Below are positions 928-63,794 of a stretch of 64,000 bases of DNA, piece by piece. The notes under the pieces are model-generated. The model did not search any database. It worked only from the letters and a program-made list of their open reading frames with translations, and was not told where the DNA came from. The position numbers were made by a program, and so were the translations under genes. Each line of letters begins with the position of its first letter. The first letter of the stretch is position 1. The DNA lies in contig JAAYDJ010000026.1 in the NCBI GenBank assembly GCA_012729335.1, positions 1-64,000 on the forward strand, in the 5' to 3' direction. This stretch comes from Bacteroidales bacterium. GTDB lineage: Bacteria > Bacteroidota > Bacteroidia > Bacteroidales > Prolixibacteraceae.

Positions 928-1815
<888 letters not shown>

Positions 1816-9181: not shown

Positions 9182-9268
9182 GGGTAATTTCCACATTTTA
9201 GAGCCTTGAGACGAGCATGGTGCTTCTGCCACTCCTCTATATCATCCTGAAATGCAATTTATTAATAA

Positions 9269-10438
<1,170 letters not shown>

Positions 10439-10657: not shown

Positions 10658-10797
10658 ATGAAAGTCGCATGGTGCTTTGACCACAAAAGGAGATGTATAT
10701 TTGCTCCATGAGAGTTCCATGGGCGTGAAGCATTTAAAGTGGCTTCATTACGATATACAACTGAAGAGCAAGTCATTAATAAACAACTATCCAAATG
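10658..10797 (+). repeat. Dispersed promoter/leader-like repeat, copy B
   Basis: Sense strand matches the reverse complement of 36682-36851 over nearly its whole length, and of 62580-62668 over its 3' half; ends on the ATG of the downstream GH43 gene. Confidence 0.8.
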
Positions 10798-13700
10798 AAA
10801 AATAAAGCTGGATTTCTCATTTTTTTGGCATTTTTTACATGGGTATCTATGGGTATGATATATGCTTCAGACCTGACCTCCGGGGTATCTGCGAACAAGC
10901 CGGATGGGGCAGTGAAGGCCCCTGTTTTCTCGAAGTTCGTCTACCAGGGCAACGACCAGGTTTACAATGATTATCCCTTGAATCCCGGAGAGTTCTACAA
11001 TCCCATTTTGCAGGGTTGTTACCCCGATCCGAGTATCACCCGCAAGGGAGACGATTACTACGTGGTATGTTCTTCATTTGCCATGTTCCCCGGGGTACCC
11101 ATTTTCCATTCCAGGGATCTGGTGAACTGGACCCAGATCGGGCATGTTCTTGACCGCAAATCACAGCTGATCGTCCACGATTGCGGAATCAGCGCAGGTA
11201 TTTATGCCCCCCAGATCATTTATAATCCGTACAACGACACCTTTTACATGATCACCACCCAGTTTGCCGGCAACATCGGGAACATGGTGGTCAAGACCAA
11301 AGATCCCATGAAAGGGTGGAGTGATCCGATTAAACTTGCATTTGACGGCATTGATCCATCCCTCTTTTTCGATGAAGACGGAAAGGGGTATGTGGTCCAT
11401 AACGATGCTCCTGACCGGGGAAAAGAGTTATACAATGGCCACCGGGTGATCAAGATCTGGGATTATGATGTGGCCAACGACAGGGTGGTTCCCGGAACCG
11501 ACAAGATCATTGTAGACGGGGGAGTGGATCTTCGGGAGAAGCCCATTTGGATTGAGGCTCCCCACATTTATAAGAAAAACGGCCGTTATTACCTGATGTG
11601 TGCCGAGGGAGGCACCGGTGGCTGGCACAGTGAGGTCATATTTGTCAGTGACCATCCCAAAGGGCCGTATACACCAGCTCCTGGCAATCCCATTCTCACG
11701 CAGCGCTACTTCCCGCGGGAACGCGCCAATAAGGTGGACTGGGCCGGGCATGCCGACCTCGTTTTAGGTCCCGATAACCAGAAATATTACGCTGTTTTTC
11801 TGGCTGTACGCCCCAATGAAAAACAAAGGGTCAACACCGGCCGGGAAACCTTCATCCTCCCTGTCGACTGGTCAGGAGAATGGCCAGTATTCGAAAACGG
11901 ACTGATCCCCATGAAACCGCTGCTGAAAATGCCCGCAGGGGTGACCGAAAACAAAACCGGAAAGGAAGGTTTCTTTCCCAACGGCAATTTTACCTTCAGC
12001 GACGATTTCACTTCCGGAAAGCTGGACTACCGCTGGATTGGCCTGCGCGGTCCCCGGGAAGATTTCATTACGGTTACCCGGGAGGGATTGCAGGTGAATC
12101 CCTTTACCACGCATATCAAGGAAGTGAAACCGACTTCCACTCTTTTTATGAGACAGATGCACCGGACCTTTTCCTTTGCTGTGGATATGAATTACAAACC
12201 CGCCTCGGAGAAGGACCTGGCGGGAATTGTCGCCCTGCAGAGTGAAAGTTTCAATTATGTGTTCGGAGTGACCCGGTGGGAAGGGAAGGACTACCTGGTA
12301 TTGCAGCGCAATCAGCGCCAACCCAGGCGGCGTAATACAGAGTCGAAAATCATGGCCAGTACAGAGATTGATCTTGCGAAACCCCTGCGCCTGCAGGTCT
12401 CGGCCGAGGGCGATGCATACACCTTCAGCTATTCGCACGACGGAACCCATTTTCAGAGCGTGGGGGGCACCCTGTCGGGCGATATCCTGTCAACGGATGT
12501 GGCCGGGGGATTTACCGGCTGTCTGCTCGGACTCTATGCCACCACGGCCAACGATGCCCATCCGAAAGCCCAAAACCCAATTGTCTTTGCTGATGTTCCC
12601 GACATGTCGATGCTCCGTGTGGGGGATACCTATTACATGAGCAGCACCACCATGCACATGAATCCGGGAGTGCCCATCATGAAATCCAAAGACCTGGCCA
12701 ACTGGGAAATCGTCAATTATGCCTACGACATACTCGATGATGTCGACGCCCTGAACCTGGCCAATGGCAAAAGTACCTACGGAAAGGGGACCTGGGCCAG
12801 CTGCCTCCGCTATCACAACGGTTTTTATTATCTCTCCACCTTTGCACAGACCACCGGCAAAACCTATATTTATAAGACCAGGGACATTGAAAAGGGCCCC
12901 TGGGAAGCCATCTCCTTCAAACCTTCCCTTCATGACCATACGCTTTGGTTCGACGACGACGGCAAGGTCTACGTGGTTTGGGGTAACGGCAAGCTTAGCC
13001 TGGCAGAACTTAAAGAGGACCTTTCCGGGATTAAGGAGGGGACCGAAAGGGTGCTCATTGAAAACGCCAGCGCCCCGGCAGGCCACAACATCGGTTTGGG
13101 TGCCGAAGGATCCCAATTATTCAAGCATGATGGAAAGTATTACCTTTTTAATATCACCTGGCCACGCGGCGGTATGCGCACCGTAGTGGTACACAGGGCC
13201 GATCACATTACCGGTCCATGGGAAGGAAAAGTGGCCTTTCAGGACCTGGGTGTAGCCCAGGGGGGCATGGTTGATACCCCTGATGGCCGCTGGTTTGCCT
13301 ATCTCTTCCGTGATTCCGGATCGGTAGGCCGCATCCCTTACCTGGTTCCCATCACCTGGGAGGAGGGTTGGCCCGTTATCGGCGTGGATGGAAAAGTACC
13401 TGAGTCCCTGGAGCTGCCCGTTAGCAGAGGACTTATCCCCGGGGTAGTCAGTTCCGACGAATTCAACCGCAAAAAGGGCGAACCGGCCCTGCCCCTGGTG
13501 TGGCAGTGGAACCACAACCCCGATCCTTCCCTTTGGTCGGTTACCCGCAGGAAAGGATTTCTGCGCCTGACCACCGGCCGCGTCGACACATCCTTTGTGA
13601 TGGCCCGGAATACCCTTACACAAAGGACATTTGGCCCGGTCAGCTCGGCAGCCATCAGATTGGACCTCTCCGGAATGAAAGAGGGTGATTTCGCCGGACT

Positions 13701-14055
13701 GGCCTTGCTCCAGCGCAAGTTCGGTCAGATCGGGGTGAAACTGGAAAACGGCCGGAAGTCGGTATTGATGGTCAGCAATGAAACCGACCGGCCCACAGAA
13801 CTGGCACGCGTCCCCCTCAACCAGAATTATATCTTCCTGAAGGCGGCCTGCGATTTCCGGGATAGAGCCGACCTGGGATATTTCTATTACAGCCTCGATG
13901 GCAGCAACTGGTCCCCACTTGGCAGGGAGATCAAAATGCAATACACACTCATGGAACATTTTATGGGCTACCGGTTTGCCCTTTTCAATTACGCCACCCG
14001 TCAGCCGGGAGGAAATGCCGACTTCGACTGGTTCCGGATTAGCCCTCAGCTGTGA
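10795..14055 (+). CDS. Double glycoside hydrolase family 43 protein, each half with a beta-sandwich C-terminal module
   Basis: First propeller: GCYPDPSITRKGDDYYVV...GIDPSLFFDEDGKGYVVH...IEAPHIYKKNGRYYLM. Second: FADVPDMSMLRVGDTYYMSSTTMHMNPGVPI...LGAEGSQLFKHDGKYYLF. Concanavalin/DUF1349-like tails (DDFTSGKLDYRW; FALFNYATRQPGGNADFDWFRI). Confidence 0.9.
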   Translation: MKNKAGFLIFLAFFTWVSMGMIYASDLTSGVSANKPDGAVKAPVFSKFVYQGNDQVYNDYPLNPGEFYNPILQGCYPDPSITRKGDDYYVVCSSFAMFPGVPIFHSRDLVNWTQIGHVLDRKSQLIVHDCGISAGIYAPQIIYNPYNDTFYMITTQFAGNIGNMVVKTKDPMKGWSDPIKLAFDGIDPSLFFDEDGKGYVVHNDAPDRGKELYNGHRVIKIWDYDVANDRVVPGTDKIIVDGGVDLREKPIWIEAPHIYKKNGRYYLMCAEGGTGGWHSEVIFVSDHPKGPYTPAPGNPILTQRYFPRERANKVDWAGHADLVLGPDNQKYYAVFLAVRPNEKQRVNTGRETFILPVDWSGEWPVFENGLIPMKPLLKMPAGVTENKTGKEGFFPNGNFTFSDDFTSGKLDYRWIGLRGPREDFITVTREGLQVNPFTTHIKEVKPTSTLFMRQMHRTFSFAVDMNYKPASEKDLAGIVALQSESFNYVFGVTRWEGKDYLVLQRNQRQPRRRNTESKIMASTEIDLAKPLRLQVSAEGDAYTFSYSHDGTHFQSVGGTLSGDILSTDVAGGFTGCLLGLYATTANDAHPKAQNPIVFADVPDMSMLRVGDTYYMSSTTMHMNPGVPIMKSKDLANWEIVNYAYDILDDVDALNLANGKSTYGKGTWASCLRYHNGFYYLSTFAQTTGKTYIYKTRDIEKGPWEAISFKPSLHDHTLWFDDDGKVYVVWGNGKLSLAELKEDLSGIKEGTERVLIENASAPAGHNIGLGAEGSQLFKHDGKYYLFNITWPRGGMRTVVVHRADHITGPWEGKVAFQDLGVAQGGMVDTPDGRWFAYLFRDSGSVGRIPYLVPITWEEGWPVIGVDGKVPESLELPVSRGLIPGVVSSDEFNRKKGEPALPLVWQWNHNPDPSLWSVTRRKGFLRLTTGRVDTSFVMARNTLTQRTFGPVSSAAIRLDLSGMKEGDFAGLALLQRKFGQIGVKLENGRKSVLMVSNETDRPTELARVPLNQNYIFLKAACDFRDRADLGYFYYSLDGSNWSPLGREIKMQYTLMEHFMGYRFALFNYATRQPGGNADFDWFRISPQL

Positions 14056-32130: not shown

Positions 32131-32637
32131 CTATGGCAGTTCACTCTGCTCTTTTTTTTCCAAATTGAGATAGGAATAGGCAAATCCGTTGGTTTCATCG
32201 AAATGGTCTTCGCGGCTGGTCTCCCTCCAGTCGGAATAGTTGATTTCAGGAAACCAGGTGTCGGCGTCGAAGGGCTGGTGGACCAGCGTGAGGTAGAGCT
32301 TTCGGGCGAGAGGAAAGAACTGCCTGTAGATGGATCCCCCTCCGATCACAAAAGCCTCCTCCTCGCCTGCAACCTTTGCCATGGCTTGCTCCACGCTAAA
32401 TACCGTTTCGCATCCCGGGAAATCATCCTCCAGGTTGTCGGTGATCACGATGTTCCTTCTTCCGGGTAAGGGCCATCTGGGCAGTGACAACAGGGTATTG
32501 CGCCCCATTATAACCGGATGTCCCAGGGTAATCCTCTTGAACCTCTTCAGATCATCAGGTAGGTGGAACAACAGATCGTTATCCTTCCCGATGGCAAAAT
32601 TCTCTGCAATGGCTACGATGATGGAAATATTATTCAT
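32131..32637 (-). CDS. folA: Dihydrofolate reductase
   Basis: ISIIVAIAENFAIGKDNDLLFHLPDDLKRFKRITLGHPVIMGRNT ... FVIGGGSIYRQFFP. Confidence 0.97.
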   Translation of the reverse strand: MNNISIIVAIAENFAIGKDNDLLFHLPDDLKRFKRITLGHPVIMGRNTLLSLPRWPLPGRRNIVITDNLEDDFPGCETVFSVEQAMAKVAGEEEAFVIGGGSIYRQFFPLARKLYLTLVHQPFDADTWFPEINYSDWRETSREDHFDETNGFAYSYLNLEKKEQSELP

Positions 32638-32642
32638 AAAAT

Positions 32643-32761
32643 GAGTCTTGAGTCTGGAATCTGGAATCTTGAGTCTTGAGTCTGGAATCTGGAATCTGGA
32701 ATCTGGAATCTGGAGTCTGGAATCTGGAGTCTGGAATCTGGAATCTTGAGTCTTGAGTCTT
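32643..32761. repeat. 7-bp tandem repeat GARTCTK x17
   Basis: 17 consecutive perfect-period units of gagtctt/gagtctg/gaatctg/gaatctt. Confidence 0.97.
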
Positions 32762-32816
32762 GAGTAATGCTGCCTTCCCTGGTTTCGTTGGCACTGAGGG
32801 GCAGGTAGGGTAAGGT

Positions 32817-35181: not shown

Positions 35182-36684
35182 TCAGTTCCACTTGCTTTCA
35201 CGTTCGGCGGCCGTGGCTTTCCATCCCGGAACAATCTCCTTCAGGAAGGCGGCTTTCTCCTCGTTGAATTTCTTCATATCCAGTCCGATAAACTCCTGGG
35301 CCTTGGCTTTGGTGTCGATATCGGGGTAGGGGATCTCTTCGTTGAATCCGAGGGCTGAGAGGAGACGGGCAAGCTTTATGCGGGTTTCCTGGGCGATGGT
35401 CTGGCCATGGGAGACGATGCGTGCGCATTCCACTGGCGCGTGAAAGGAGCCTCCATGGGTGGCCGCCACATAGTCCCAGCGCCATTGGGCACGTCTGATG
35501 CCGTCGAGGATATCTTTCATCTGATCTTCGGTGGCTCCCAGGTCCCAGGCTTTTTTAGCTTCCACATGGGCGCGTACCAGCGATTTCTCCAGTTCGTGGC
35601 GGGCAGCGAGCACCTTGTCCTGCCGGTCGTAGACGTTTTGCACCAGGGTTTCGGCTTCTTCGCGGTGGCACACCTGGCAGGAGGCGGCAATGTTGTTGAG
35701 GGGGCTCTGCATCTTATGGTTGGTGAATTTCACCCCGCCTTCACTCTGGTAAGGCATGTGGCAGTCGGCACAGGCCACCCCCCGCTGGGCATGAATGCCG
35801 TGCTGCGCCATCTCATAATCGGGGTGCTGGGCTTTCAGCATGGGCGCTTTGCTCAGGGCATGCGTCCAGTCACTGAAGGCAATGCCATCATAGTAAATTT
35901 CCATCTCTTCGACCGTCATCCCTTTGTCCCACGGAAAAGTCAGGTAGTTGGCCCCTTCGGCTACCTTCTTATTGAAATAGTATTCGACGTGGCACTGGGC
36001 GCAGACCAGCGTGCGCATCTCCTGATAGCTGGCTTTGGTGATGTCCCTGCCTTGTCTTTCGAAGGCTTCGATCAGCGCGGGTCTCGAAATGTGCAGATTG
36101 GCGGTTTTGGCATCGTGGCAATCGGCACAGCCGATCGGATTGACGACCTCGGGTCCTAACCGGGCCCACTGCCCTGTGTAGTACTGGGTGATCCCTTCCT
36201 CTTTCATCATTCGAGGCACGTCGGGACTCTTACACGTCCAGCAGGTGGTGGGCTGCGGCCCCGCATCGGGGGTCATAGGCGCACCGGTCCGCAGCGTATT
36301 AAGAACATCCTCCACCGCATAGAAATGGCCACGCCCCTGCTTGTAGTCACGCGAGAAAAGATATCCCGCCCAGAGCACCACCATCTCGGGCACCTCCTCC
36401 AGCATGTCGACGGTGGCATTGCCTCCGTGCTTGCTCCGGAAGGTGGTGTCGGCCGTGCCGTAATAGGACTGGAATTCACGGGGATAATTCTCTCCCCACA
36501 CTTCGTTTCTGACTTCTCCGTCACGGATCTCCGTCTTGGGCGTATTTACGAACAAGGCTTCGGCGCGGCGCTCGATGATCGAGGAGGCCAGCAATCCGAG
36601 CAAAAAGACAATAACAATGGTGACGAAAAACAACAGCCATGCCAGGCCGGGCTTTTTCTGGGTCAGTTCGGTGATCGATTTCAT
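35182..36684 (-). CDS. nrfA: Ammonia-forming cytochrome c nitrite reductase, pentaheme catalytic subunit
   Basis: CWTCK catalytic heme motif plus four CxxCH (CADCH, CAQCH, CADCH, CQVCH). Confidence 0.97.
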   Translation of the reverse strand: MKSITELTQKKPGLAWLLFFVTIVIVFLLGLLASSIIERRAEALFVNTPKTEIRDGEVRNEVWGENYPREFQSYYGTADTTFRSKHGGNATVDMLEEVPEMVVLWAGYLFSRDYKQGRGHFYAVEDVLNTLRTGAPMTPDAGPQPTTCWTCKSPDVPRMMKEEGITQYYTGQWARLGPEVVNPIGCADCHDAKTANLHISRPALIEAFERQGRDITKASYQEMRTLVCAQCHVEYYFNKKVAEGANYLTFPWDKGMTVEEMEIYYDGIAFSDWTHALSKAPMLKAQHPDYEMAQHGIHAQRGVACADCHMPYQSEGGVKFTNHKMQSPLNNIAASCQVCHREEAETLVQNVYDRQDKVLAARHELEKSLVRAHVEAKKAWDLGATEDQMKDILDGIRRAQWRWDYVAATHGGSFHAPVECARIVSHGQTIAQETRIKLARLLSALGFNEEIPYPDIDTKAKAQEFIGLDMKKFNEEKAAFLKEIVPGWKATAAERESKWN

Positions 36685-36851
36685 TTGGATATTTGTTTGT
36701 TAATGACTTGCTCTTCAGTTGTATTTCAAGATGAAGCCAGTTGATGTGCTTCACGCCCATGGAATTGGCTTCGCGGTGCTCCGCCGAACTTCGTTTCGCA
36801 TGGAGCAAATAAACATGTCCTTATGTGGTCGAAGCACCAAGCGACTTTCAT
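36682..36851 (-). repeat. Dispersed promoter/leader-like repeat, copy A, in the nrfH-nrfA spacer
   Basis: Reverse complement matches 10658-10797, with an extra segment of about 30 nt (GCGAAACGAAGTTCGGCGGAGCACCGCGAAGCCAA region); ends on the nrfA ATG. Confidence 0.8.
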
Positions 36852-40579: not shown

Positions 40580-41558
40580 GACAAGCAAAGATAGAAATCT
40601 GAAGGATATCATGTCACCTGAAAATTCACCGATCGGTGACCAGGCCAACAACGTATTGTACGCACCCGGAAACCTCATCCGGACTAATCCCTATGGTTTC
40701 GGGATTCATTCTCCCTTTGCCTACCATCTGGTGGCCAGGGTGCTTTTCGGAAAGGCACTTTCCTTTCCGGGCGAAAAGGAGGCGTTGGCGGCGCTCAGAT
40801 ATGGTGACAGGAGCCTGGCAGCCAGGATCCTGCGGCTGGCCCGCTATTTTTCCCCCGAACTCCTTCTCACCGGCGATGAGGGGTCTCCCCTGATGGCCAC
40901 CCTCACTCCACTTTGGCCGGTTCTCCTTCCCAATACACGGGTCTGTTCAGTAACCCGGAAAAAAGATCCATACTATTCCCGGCCTTTCCCTGCCGGTGAC
41001 CAATCATCAGGTGACCGGTCATCAGGTTGCCAATCATCCGGTGATCAGCCCTCAGGTTGCCAATCGTCAGCTGACCAATCACCATGCGGCCCAATGTCAG
41101 TTAATCGGTTGTCAGATAAGCTGTTGCCGGGTCAACGGCCGTCAGATAACGTGTTGCCGGGTCAACGGCCTTCAGATAACGTGTTGCCGGGTCAACGGCC
41201 GTCAGGTGTCCTGCCATCGGATCCTCAGCATTCAGTTGACCGGTCGCCGGAAAATCAGCCTCCCGTTGCTCCCGGTTCTGGTTATGAAAGTCAGGCCGGA
41301 AACAGGAAACCCAGGGTGGAGACCATGGTCATCGGAAGCCTGGTCTGTCATTTTCCCTCCTCCCTCACCAGGGTGAACGCCCCGGCCTGCTGGATATTGA
41401 CCGACCTGGGGAATTTGGAGTTAAAAGGATTTTTTAATATCTTGCGCCTTTCTGACACCACCTCACTCACCTTTGAAGTAAAGAAAACGGGAATCGTTAT
41501 CTTTGACCCGAGATTTAAGAAACAGAATTACTTCGTCAGGGAGTGGTTCCGGTTCTGA
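40578..41558 (+). CDS. Degenerate SAM-methyltransferase-family-like protein with tandem-repeat insertion
   Basis: N-terminal [21 protein letters not shown] and C-terminal [33 protein letters not shown] resemble the ends of a Bacteroidota methyltransferase family; the centre is repetitive. ATG 40611 is an alternative start. Confidence 0.55.
40995..41082 (+). repeat. 15-bp coding tandem repeat (about 6 units)
   Basis: ggtgaccaatcatca / ggtgaccggtcatca / ggttgccaatcatcc / ggtgatcagccctca / ggttgccaatcgtca / gctgaccaatcacc. Confidence 0.85.
41113..41204 (+). repeat. 30-bp coding tandem repeat (about 3 units)
   Basis: (tcagataa[gc][cg]tgttgccgggtcaacggccg/t) repeated three times, encoding SDxxLPGQRP. 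Confidence 0.9.
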
Positions 41559-49096: not shown

Positions 49097-49134
49097 ATTG
49101 TTACATCTGTTAAACATAAATCATTCCTCTCCAG

Positions 49135-49302
49135 GAGATCCTCCCCGAAACAGGCCTAGAGATCCTCCCCGAAACAGGCCTAAAGATCCTCCCCGAAACA
49201 GGCCTAGAGATCCTCCCCGAAACAGGCCTAGAGATCCTCTCCGAAACAAGGCTGGAGTTCCTCCCCGAAACAAGGCTGGAGTTCCTCACCATAGTGGGCG
49301 TG
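49135..49302. repeat. 24-bp tandem repeat, about 7 units, degenerating to the right
   Basis: gagatcctccccgaaacaggccta repeated at 24-bp spacing. Confidence 0.95.
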
Positions 49303-49478
49303 AATTCCTTCCCGGAAAGGGTCGTGAAACCTTACCCGGAGGAGGAAACTACCCTGTATTGGGCTCAGGATCCCCTTATCTGCAAAGTAAACCAAAAAAT
49401 ACAAAAGTAAAATGTTCAGGCCCATATCATGTGTGTCAGGAGACAGAAGTCATGGAGAGGCCTGCAGGTTATCATTGA

Positions 49479-49618
49479 TATGGCCCATCCTGCATTGTTA
49501 TGGCCCATCCTGCATTGATATGGCCAATTCTGCATTGATATGGCCAATCCTGCATTGATATGGCCAATCCTGCATCGTTGTGGCCCAGCCTGCATCGTTG
49601 TGGCCCAGCCTGCATGGA
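49479..49618. repeat. 20-bp tandem repeat x7
   Basis: tatggcccatcctgcattgt-type units at exact 20-bp spacing. Confidence 0.96.
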
Positions 49619-49831
49619 ATGGACATCATCTTAAAGCCGGGGGGGCATATCAGTCAGGGGCCGAACGTGGTATTATGAACGATATGAGACGGCCGGCTGG
49701 GTCGGTGAAGACGGGCCACGGGTCAGGAGTGATTTCCAGGGGATGGTTATCGGGTGAGCAGGCGGGGATTCTGCATGTTTTTTTTACCAATTAAATACGG
49801 GCTCCGGAATTATTGTTTTGCAGGAAAGTAT

Positions 49832-62579: not shown

Positions 62580-62668
62580 CATTTGTATATTTGTTTGTTA
62601 ATGAATTGCTCTTCAGTTATATACCGTGGTGAAGCCAATTTGTGTGCTTCACTCCTGTGGAAGTCACA
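62580..62668 (-). repeat. Dispersed promoter/leader-like repeat, copy C (shorter), between pdxB and gnd
   Basis: GTGAAGCACACAAATTGGCTTCAC..GGTATATAACTGAAGAGCAATTCATTAACAAACAAATATACAAATG on the minus strand aligns with copies A and B. Confidence 0.7.
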
Positions 62669-63794
62669 TGTGGAATCCAAGCTTCTTTAGTTTACAAATT
62701 GTATCGTCGGGTACATTTGTAACCCTTAGCGTATAGGTATGGAATTCCCTTCTAACGGGATAGTCGCCTCTCATTTTCTCGAAGAGGGCGGGATGGCTGC
62801 GTAGTTCACGGTCATCGGCGGAGATGTCGTAGGTAGCCAGGATGGCTTCTCTGAGGAGGTTTTCTGAATCCCGGCCGGTTCCGTCAAGGGAAATCGTGCG
62901 TTGTTCGGGGAGTTCCACATCGTGGGGTTGCCAGTCGTCGAGGCCCAGGGAGAAAAAGCGGCTGACGGCCCTCACGCTCATCATGGTGCCATTGGCTTTT
63001 CCGTCGCGGGAATACCCGGCGATATGGGGAGTGGCCAGCAGGCATTTCTGCATCAGTTCCAGGCTGAGATCAGGTTCGTTTTCCCAGCAGTCGATGACCA
63101 GGTCACTTAACTGGTTGCTTTTAATGGCTTCCATAACAGCATCCGTATCAAATACTTCCCCGCGGCAACTGTTGATAAGCAGGGGTTTTCGGGAGAGGCT
63201 GGCCAGGAACTCCCGGTTCACCATATGCCAGGTGGCGTCTTCGCCTTCCAGGTTGAGGGGGACATGAAAGGTGAGGATATCAGCGTCTTTGCATAAGGTC
63301 TCCATGGTTACAAAAGTACCCGCACCTTCTGTTCTTTCGCGCGGGGGGTCGTTCAGGAGCACCCGCATGCCCAGGATCCGGCAGAGTCGTTCCACCTTTT
63401 TGCCGACGTTGCCCACGCCCACGATGCCGATGGTGGTATCCCGGAGGGGAATGTTCCTGTGGGCGGACCATACGGCAAGGGCGGCGGCAATATATTGTTC
63501 TACGCTTCCGGCATTGCACCCCGGGGCGTTGGTCCAGCCAATGCCCGCCTGCTCGCACCACGTCGTGTCGATATGGTCAAAACCAATGGTGGCCGTGGCG
63601 ATGAACTTAACCGCCGACCCTGCCAGCAACGCTTCATTGCAAAGCGTCCTGGTTCGCGTCACCAGTGCATCGGCATCCCGGACTACTTCCCGGGTCGTTT
63701 TGCTCCCAGGCAGGTATACCACCTCTGCAAATGGTTCAAACACTCCCCTGATGTAGGGGATTTTATCATCGACAACGATCTTCATATGATTCAA
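62664..63794 (-). CDS. pdxB: 4-phosphoerythronate dehydrogenase
   Basis: MKIVVDDKIPYIRGVFEPFAEVVYLPG; GIVGVGNVGKKVERLCRILGMRVLLNDPPR. Confidence 0.95.
   Translation of the reverse strand: MNHMKIVVDDKIPYIRGVFEPFAEVVYLPGSKTTREVVRDADALVTRTRTLCNEALLAGSAVKFIATATIGFDHIDTTWCEQAGIGWTNAPGCNAGSVEQYIAAALAVWSAHRNIPLRDTTIGIVGVGNVGKKVERLCRILGMRVLLNDPPRERTEGAGTFVTMETLCKDADILTFHVPLNLEGEDATWHMVNREFLASLSRKPLLINSCRGEVFDTDAVMEAIKSNQLSDLVIDCWENEPDLSLELMQKCLLATPHIAGYSRDGKANGTMMSVRAVSRFFSLGLDDWQPHDVELPEQRTISLDGTGRDSENLLREAILATYDISADDRELRSHPALFEKMRGDYPVRREFHTYTLRVTNVPDDTICKLKKLGFHM

Follow-up and report, generated by a model that had tools for sequence, protein, structure and literature searches.

A small repeat dispersed through a Prolixibacteraceae genome is, with a probability of roughly 0.78, a non-autonomous transposable element of 90-170 nt, which would insert at ATGAA under the direction of an internal guide and be mobilised by an enzyme supplied in trans. 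This reading is drawn from sequence comparison: the boundaries of the copies, insertion-free sites in relatives, and a helix between the guide and the element's own 3' end that covaries across the family.

The window, the whole 64,000-nt stretch that was analysed, is part of contig 18 of a genome congeneric with Prolixibacteraceae bacterium UBA1413. An earlier note on this DNA had described three copies of the repeat placed exactly 5' of three genes. A covariance model built from 27 sequences, copy A among them, recovered all three (E-values of 5e-27, 1e-25 and 4e-13) and added copy D (Table 1), so the dispersed repeat is real. The orientation of the copies relative to the genes and their co-directional neighbours are as first described, as is the ending of copies A and B on the start codons downstream. 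For copy C, the 3' part does lie upstream of gnd, but the copy ends short of the gnd start. Copy C keeps mainly its 3' half, from 62580 to ~62668, and the covariance model extends it to 62704. The 5' end of copy D resembles the UBA1413 subfamily (ACGAGCATGG). The window also holds intergenic arrays of short tandem repeats at 49111-49342, 49453-49638, 32622-32784 and 40995-41214, with units of 24, 20, 7/14 and 15/30 nt; similar 'GAATCTGGAGTCT' arrays occur near other copies of the element and at contig ends.

Table 1. Copies of the element and their parts in the window, and ends of the longer member in the same genome
Feature	Coordinates	Strand	Remarks
Copy A, complete short type (140 nt)	10658-10797	+	upstream of the double-GH43 gene
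Copy A, 5' NTG (ATG)	10658-10660	+	start-codon-like triplet at the left boundary; flank counts and empty sites
Copy A, stem A 5' arm	10662-10669	+	partner 10709-10716; two mismatches here
Copy A, hairpin B (TGGT-GCTTTG-ACCA)	10670-10683	+	covarying family-wide
Copy A, conserved loop	10684-10699	+	family consensus ACAAAAGnnCATGTATAAA; overlaps TATATTTG (10696-10703), the -7 box of the earlier note
Copy A, stem A 3' arm	10709-10716	+	
Copy A, internal guide CCATGGG	10717-10723	+	CAT complementary to the terminal ATG
Copy A, 3' terminus CAAATG	10792-10797	+	terminal ATG is the start codon of ORF 10795-14055
Copy B, complete long type (170 nt, 30-nt internal insert)	36682-36851	-	terminal ATG is the start codon of nrfA (35182-36684)
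Copy C, degraded 5' half	62580-62704	-	last triplet is an ATG, 35 nt before the gnd start
Copy D, fourth copy, degraded and internally deleted	9206-9283	+	E 3.8e-4; missed by the earlier note; ends on the start codon of ORF 9281-10438, a putative esterase gene
Long member, left end	L039:1-126	-	identical to the other left ends
Long member, left end	L062:1-118	-	identical to the other left ends
Long member, left end	L063:3107-3224	+	identical to the other left ends
Long member, right end	L143:1-124		
Long member, right end	L152, 3' end		

The element is many-copied and carries no gene of its own. The model found ~66 copies in the 3.66-Mb genome, and blastn with copy B as query gave 49 matches there. 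Most copies in this genome measure 140-170 nt and fall into two sizes, ~140 and ~170 nt, which differ by the 30-nt insert; the commonest form among relatives is ~97-102 nt. Many are degraded or truncated. In eight cases among the 65 copies examined, a second copy comes next and has the ATG in common with the first; tandem copies with exactly the ATG in common also occur in a second genus, and newer copies are nested in older, diverged ones at their terminal ATG. Of 120 genomes of the family, from 23 genera, a model search detected the element in 16, from 7 genera, and a pattern scan of public genomes gave at least 113 stretches, mostly in Anaerophaga, Thermophagus, Marinilabilia and Draconibacterium, with a few in Proteiniphilum and others. 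The architecture is the same in Marinilabiliaceae, Prolixibacteraceae and Proteiniphilum; the pattern was not found in viral contigs. Some copies hold ~100 nt of unrelated cargo between the loop and the 3' end. Other repeats (a AGATTCTTCG...CATTCTGAG palindrome and GGCAGAAGTGCACAGGCAGAAGG repeats) occupy that place at L188, L196, L200, L214 and L240 in Anaerophaga and at L193, L197, L201 and L243 in Thermophagus. Further repeat units that are many-copied in Anaerophaga strain Valhall adjoin the element at L240:476-859 and 1234-1396.

The boundaries of the copies are NTG|AAA on the left and NNNATG|A on the right. The gene that follows copy C31:226876 has an ortholog in UBA1413 whose native leader passes straight into ATGAAACACCCG, with no element, whereas in the genome under study the same leader runs into an ATG, two tandem elements and then the gene. 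The empty junction reads 'aataatctaaacac|ATGAAACACCCG' and the filled one 'aataatctaaacag|ATG[...]', with five extra nucleotides (ATGAA) at the right junction. At two Anaerophaga genes, strain Valhall has the native leader directly on ATGAAA, and DSM 12881 has leader, ATG, elements, ATG and gene. Because the one UBA1413 comparison and the two Anaerophaga comparisons agree, the insertion point is placed at NTG|AA. The Anaerophaga sites L211 and L216 gave no clean empty site (upstream sequence could not be aligned at one, and an element remnant persists in Valhall at the other), and an automatic flank search returned no further empty sites among the loci compared. The triplets at the left flank of 65 copies were ATG 42 times, GTG 10 times, TTG 5 times and CTG never, a composition that differs from the background, in which the first base of non-coding NTGAA sites was T 190, A 167, C 161 and G 119 times. 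The target is NTGAA, with ATGAA strongly preferred. Since ATGA(A) is present at both ends of an element with the fixed target ATGAA, a target duplication is indistinguishable from sequence borne by the element. The dispersed and tandem copies, the nesting of newer copies in older ones and these three insertion-free sites bear out the word 'mobile' in the earlier note.

The 5' half of the element is structured, and hairpin B and a conserved ACAAAAGnnCATG loop lie within its stem A. To the 3' side of this half come the internal guide, TTCCAYNNN, and a 3' end that is rich in A+T and finishes NNNRTG|A(A). Two helices covary, namely hairpin B and the pairing of the guide CAYNNN with the element's own 3' end NNNRTG. 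Across 32 diverse copies, helix 2 was 84.8% and helix 3 was 91.1% paired, against at most 39% in slid controls, and in hairpin B and the guide/3'-end helix 64 cells were changed on both sides (22.8 in shuffles). Guide and 3' end were exactly complementary in 54 of 91 copies, compared with a mean of 15.6 and a maximum of 30 in 5000 shuffles, a comparison from which relatedness was not removed. The match tracks CAT with ATG and CAC with GTG, plus the three preceding bases; the subfamily of the window has lost the extended 6-nt match of other subfamilies, and only CAT/ATG is left. Stem A, which hardly varies, contains a tandem G-A mismatch (CGAG/CGAG); by inspection, its full pairing is restored by GTCG/CGAC in the same genome and by CCTC/GAGG in one relative.

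The 3' end coincides exactly with a start codon in 30 of the 57 terminal copies, and in three of these 30 the codon opens the frame of the longer member described below. Another 4 copies lie within 10 nt of a start and 15 within 150 nt, which leaves 8 without a nearby start. The ATGs are true starts, as several Pfam domains set in within six residues of them. Non-coding ATGAA sites are themselves often start codons: 93 of 230 (40%) in this genome, and 24% at the loci of relatives, whose copies coincide with starts in 40 of 99 cases. An ATGAA target combined with loss of intragenic insertions predicts 40%, so the start-codon position mostly needs no special recognition and is largely explained by these two factors. 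The genome scan with start-codon distances that the earlier note had proposed thus revealed a positional bias, although one only ~1.3-1.5 fold above the ATGAA expectation. The frame embedded in the element is either broken or runs no further than the terminal ATG, and a conserved leader peptide was rejected because that frame is so often broken.

We propose that insertion takes place between NTG and AA of the NTGAA target. In IS200/IS605 transposons, guide sequences complementary to the cleavage site select the cut (PMC6006769, PMC8266576); by analogy, the guide of the element would pick the cut site by pairing with ATGAA at the target site and, where the ends are joined, with NNNATGAA. At start codons, the element's own 3' end becomes the leader and start codon of the gene. 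Such insertions would be tolerated because leader and ATG are restored, and those inside genes would be lost.

The earlier note had read the repeat as a recombining promoter and leader cassette that puts unrelated genes under shared control, which is the least probable of the explanations weighed. Copies are oriented as the gene, more than half of the terminal ones end on its start codon and some contain TATATTTG, all as a cassette would have it. However, a consensus test of 46 copies located TAnnTTTG in 18, never preceded by TTG at 18-22 nt, the -7 box is not conserved in related subfamilies, and the stretch conserved across the wider family is ACAAAAGnnCATGTATAAA rather than TTTG. A conserved functional promoter was therefore rejected; single copies may carry one. 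The downstream genes are functionally unrelated, as the earlier note had seen for three of them, and so diverse in theme that shared control finds no support, and 23 of the 57 terminal copies lie more than 10 nt from any start. What survives of the cassette is its leader half, in that the 3' end of the element takes the place of the native leader and brings the ATG.

Two further readings start from the pairing of the guide with AUG. If the element were a translation-regulating RNA leader, one whose start codon NNNRTG is masked by CAYNNN and whose copies spread for that function, helix 3 would be expected to include the start codon and to covary, CAC with GTG included, as it does, and the element does occupy the leaders of many genes. 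This is nonetheless unlikely: guide pairing averages 5.43 of 6 in copies away from start codons and 4.91 at start codons, and as it is no worse where there is no gene to control, it is not kept for gene regulation. By analogy with IS200/IS605, this speaks for a pairing that serves mobility rather than gene control. The absence of a gene theme, the lack of a credible match in an Rfam search and the numerous degraded or truncated copies also weigh against a regulatory leader. Somewhat less likely again is a short element moved through RNA, by reverse splicing or reverse transcription into mRNA at an accessible start codon. Sense orientation, start-codon positions, the structured 5' half and the guide itself would suit it, but the excess at start codons over the ATGAA background is modest (53-60% versus 40%), many intergenic Anaerophaga copies lie away from starts, and there is no sign of splicing, since insertions in coding sequences, which splicing could rescue, were not seen among the copies examined.

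For guide-directed transposition, the enzyme would act in trans, and its best candidate is the product of a longer, multi-copy member of the element family, which lies unassembled at five contig ends of the genome (Table 1). Its left end, ATG|AAAGCC...ACAAAAGGACATGGATATA, always stands directly behind a short copy (three seen), and its right end reads ...CATTAATCTATAATATATCCAAATG. One right end is followed by a thioredoxin-like gene that starts on that ATG, and the other by a lipoprotein-like frame out of phase with the terminal ATG, both named by reading the sequence. The long member has the loop and both termini in common with the element, and the ATG it captures opens its reading frame; this member may be autonomous and encode the mobilising enzyme. 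Its N-terminal peptide had no Pfam match, one spurious match in 295 genomes and nothing convincing in plasmids, and the 5'-only copies of the genome, examined as left ends of long copies, revealed no transposase. A Y1 transposase (PF01797) was not found in this genome, UBA1413 or Proteiniphilum, nor a TnpAREP like that of Bacteroidetes subclass 2.6 in this genome. A Y1 transposase was rejected as the partner, being absent here, and in two other carriers the Y1 genes that were inspected have different repeats on either side. Thermophagus L306 carries at 1246-1788 (-) a Bacteroidetes-type TnpAREP-like gene (NHLH...YIHMNP) with GGATTGCAAATCC repeats at its flanks. It is a tentative and rather doubtful possibility that these parts make up a previously undescribed Bacteroidales transposition system, with a non-Y1 enzyme, an internal nucleic-acid guide and insertion at ATGAA and so at start codons, in which the frame of the long member begins on a captured start codon and the ends restore the leader and start of the host gene.

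The closest known parallel is IS200/IS605 with its non-autonomous derivatives, which likewise have no terminal inverted repeats (here the ends AAAGTCGC.../...ACTAATG are not complementary), subterminal hairpins, a short fixed target and a guide complementary to the cleavage site (PMC6006769, PMC8266576). The element shares this last trait, though with a guide of different position and length, lying 3' of the stem and pairing over 5-8 nt with its own end and ATGAA; unlike in IS200/IS605, several genomes that carry it have no Y1 transposase. REP sequences and REPtrons (TnpAREP), including Bacteroidetes subclass 2.6 with its atypical repeats, also form many small structured intergenic copies and tandem arrays, but the element is not a GTAG-tagged palindrome of 20-50 nt, its genome has no TnpAREP, and the subclass-2.6-like gene of Thermophagus is flanked by repeats other than the element. 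MITEs such as Correia elements and BrickBuilt of Porphyromonas gingivalis are small, non-autonomous and found upstream of genes, and sometimes carry promoters (PMC10969869); the element differs in having neither terminal inverted repeats nor a conserved promoter, and in inserting at ATGAA with the start codon restored. Rickettsia palindromic elements are similarly ~100-150 nt long, dispersed and tolerated by genes, but they integrate inside genes as in-frame fusions (PMC10969869), whereas the element sits between the native start codon and the coding sequence, with copies at or upstream of starts. Since one defining feature of each of IS200/IS605, REP and MITE was tested and found lacking, we do not file the element under any of them; by analogy, it appears to behave like a non-autonomous derivative of a guide-directed single-strand transposon. 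No description of it was found in the open-licence literature searched.

The covarying guide suggests that the insertion site is set by base pairing. Hitting start codons yet returning a leader and an ATG is an unusual way to insert without killing the host gene. The element has rewritten the 5' leaders of dozens of Bacteroidales genes, and start-codon annotation and expression studies in these bacteria are affected as a result.
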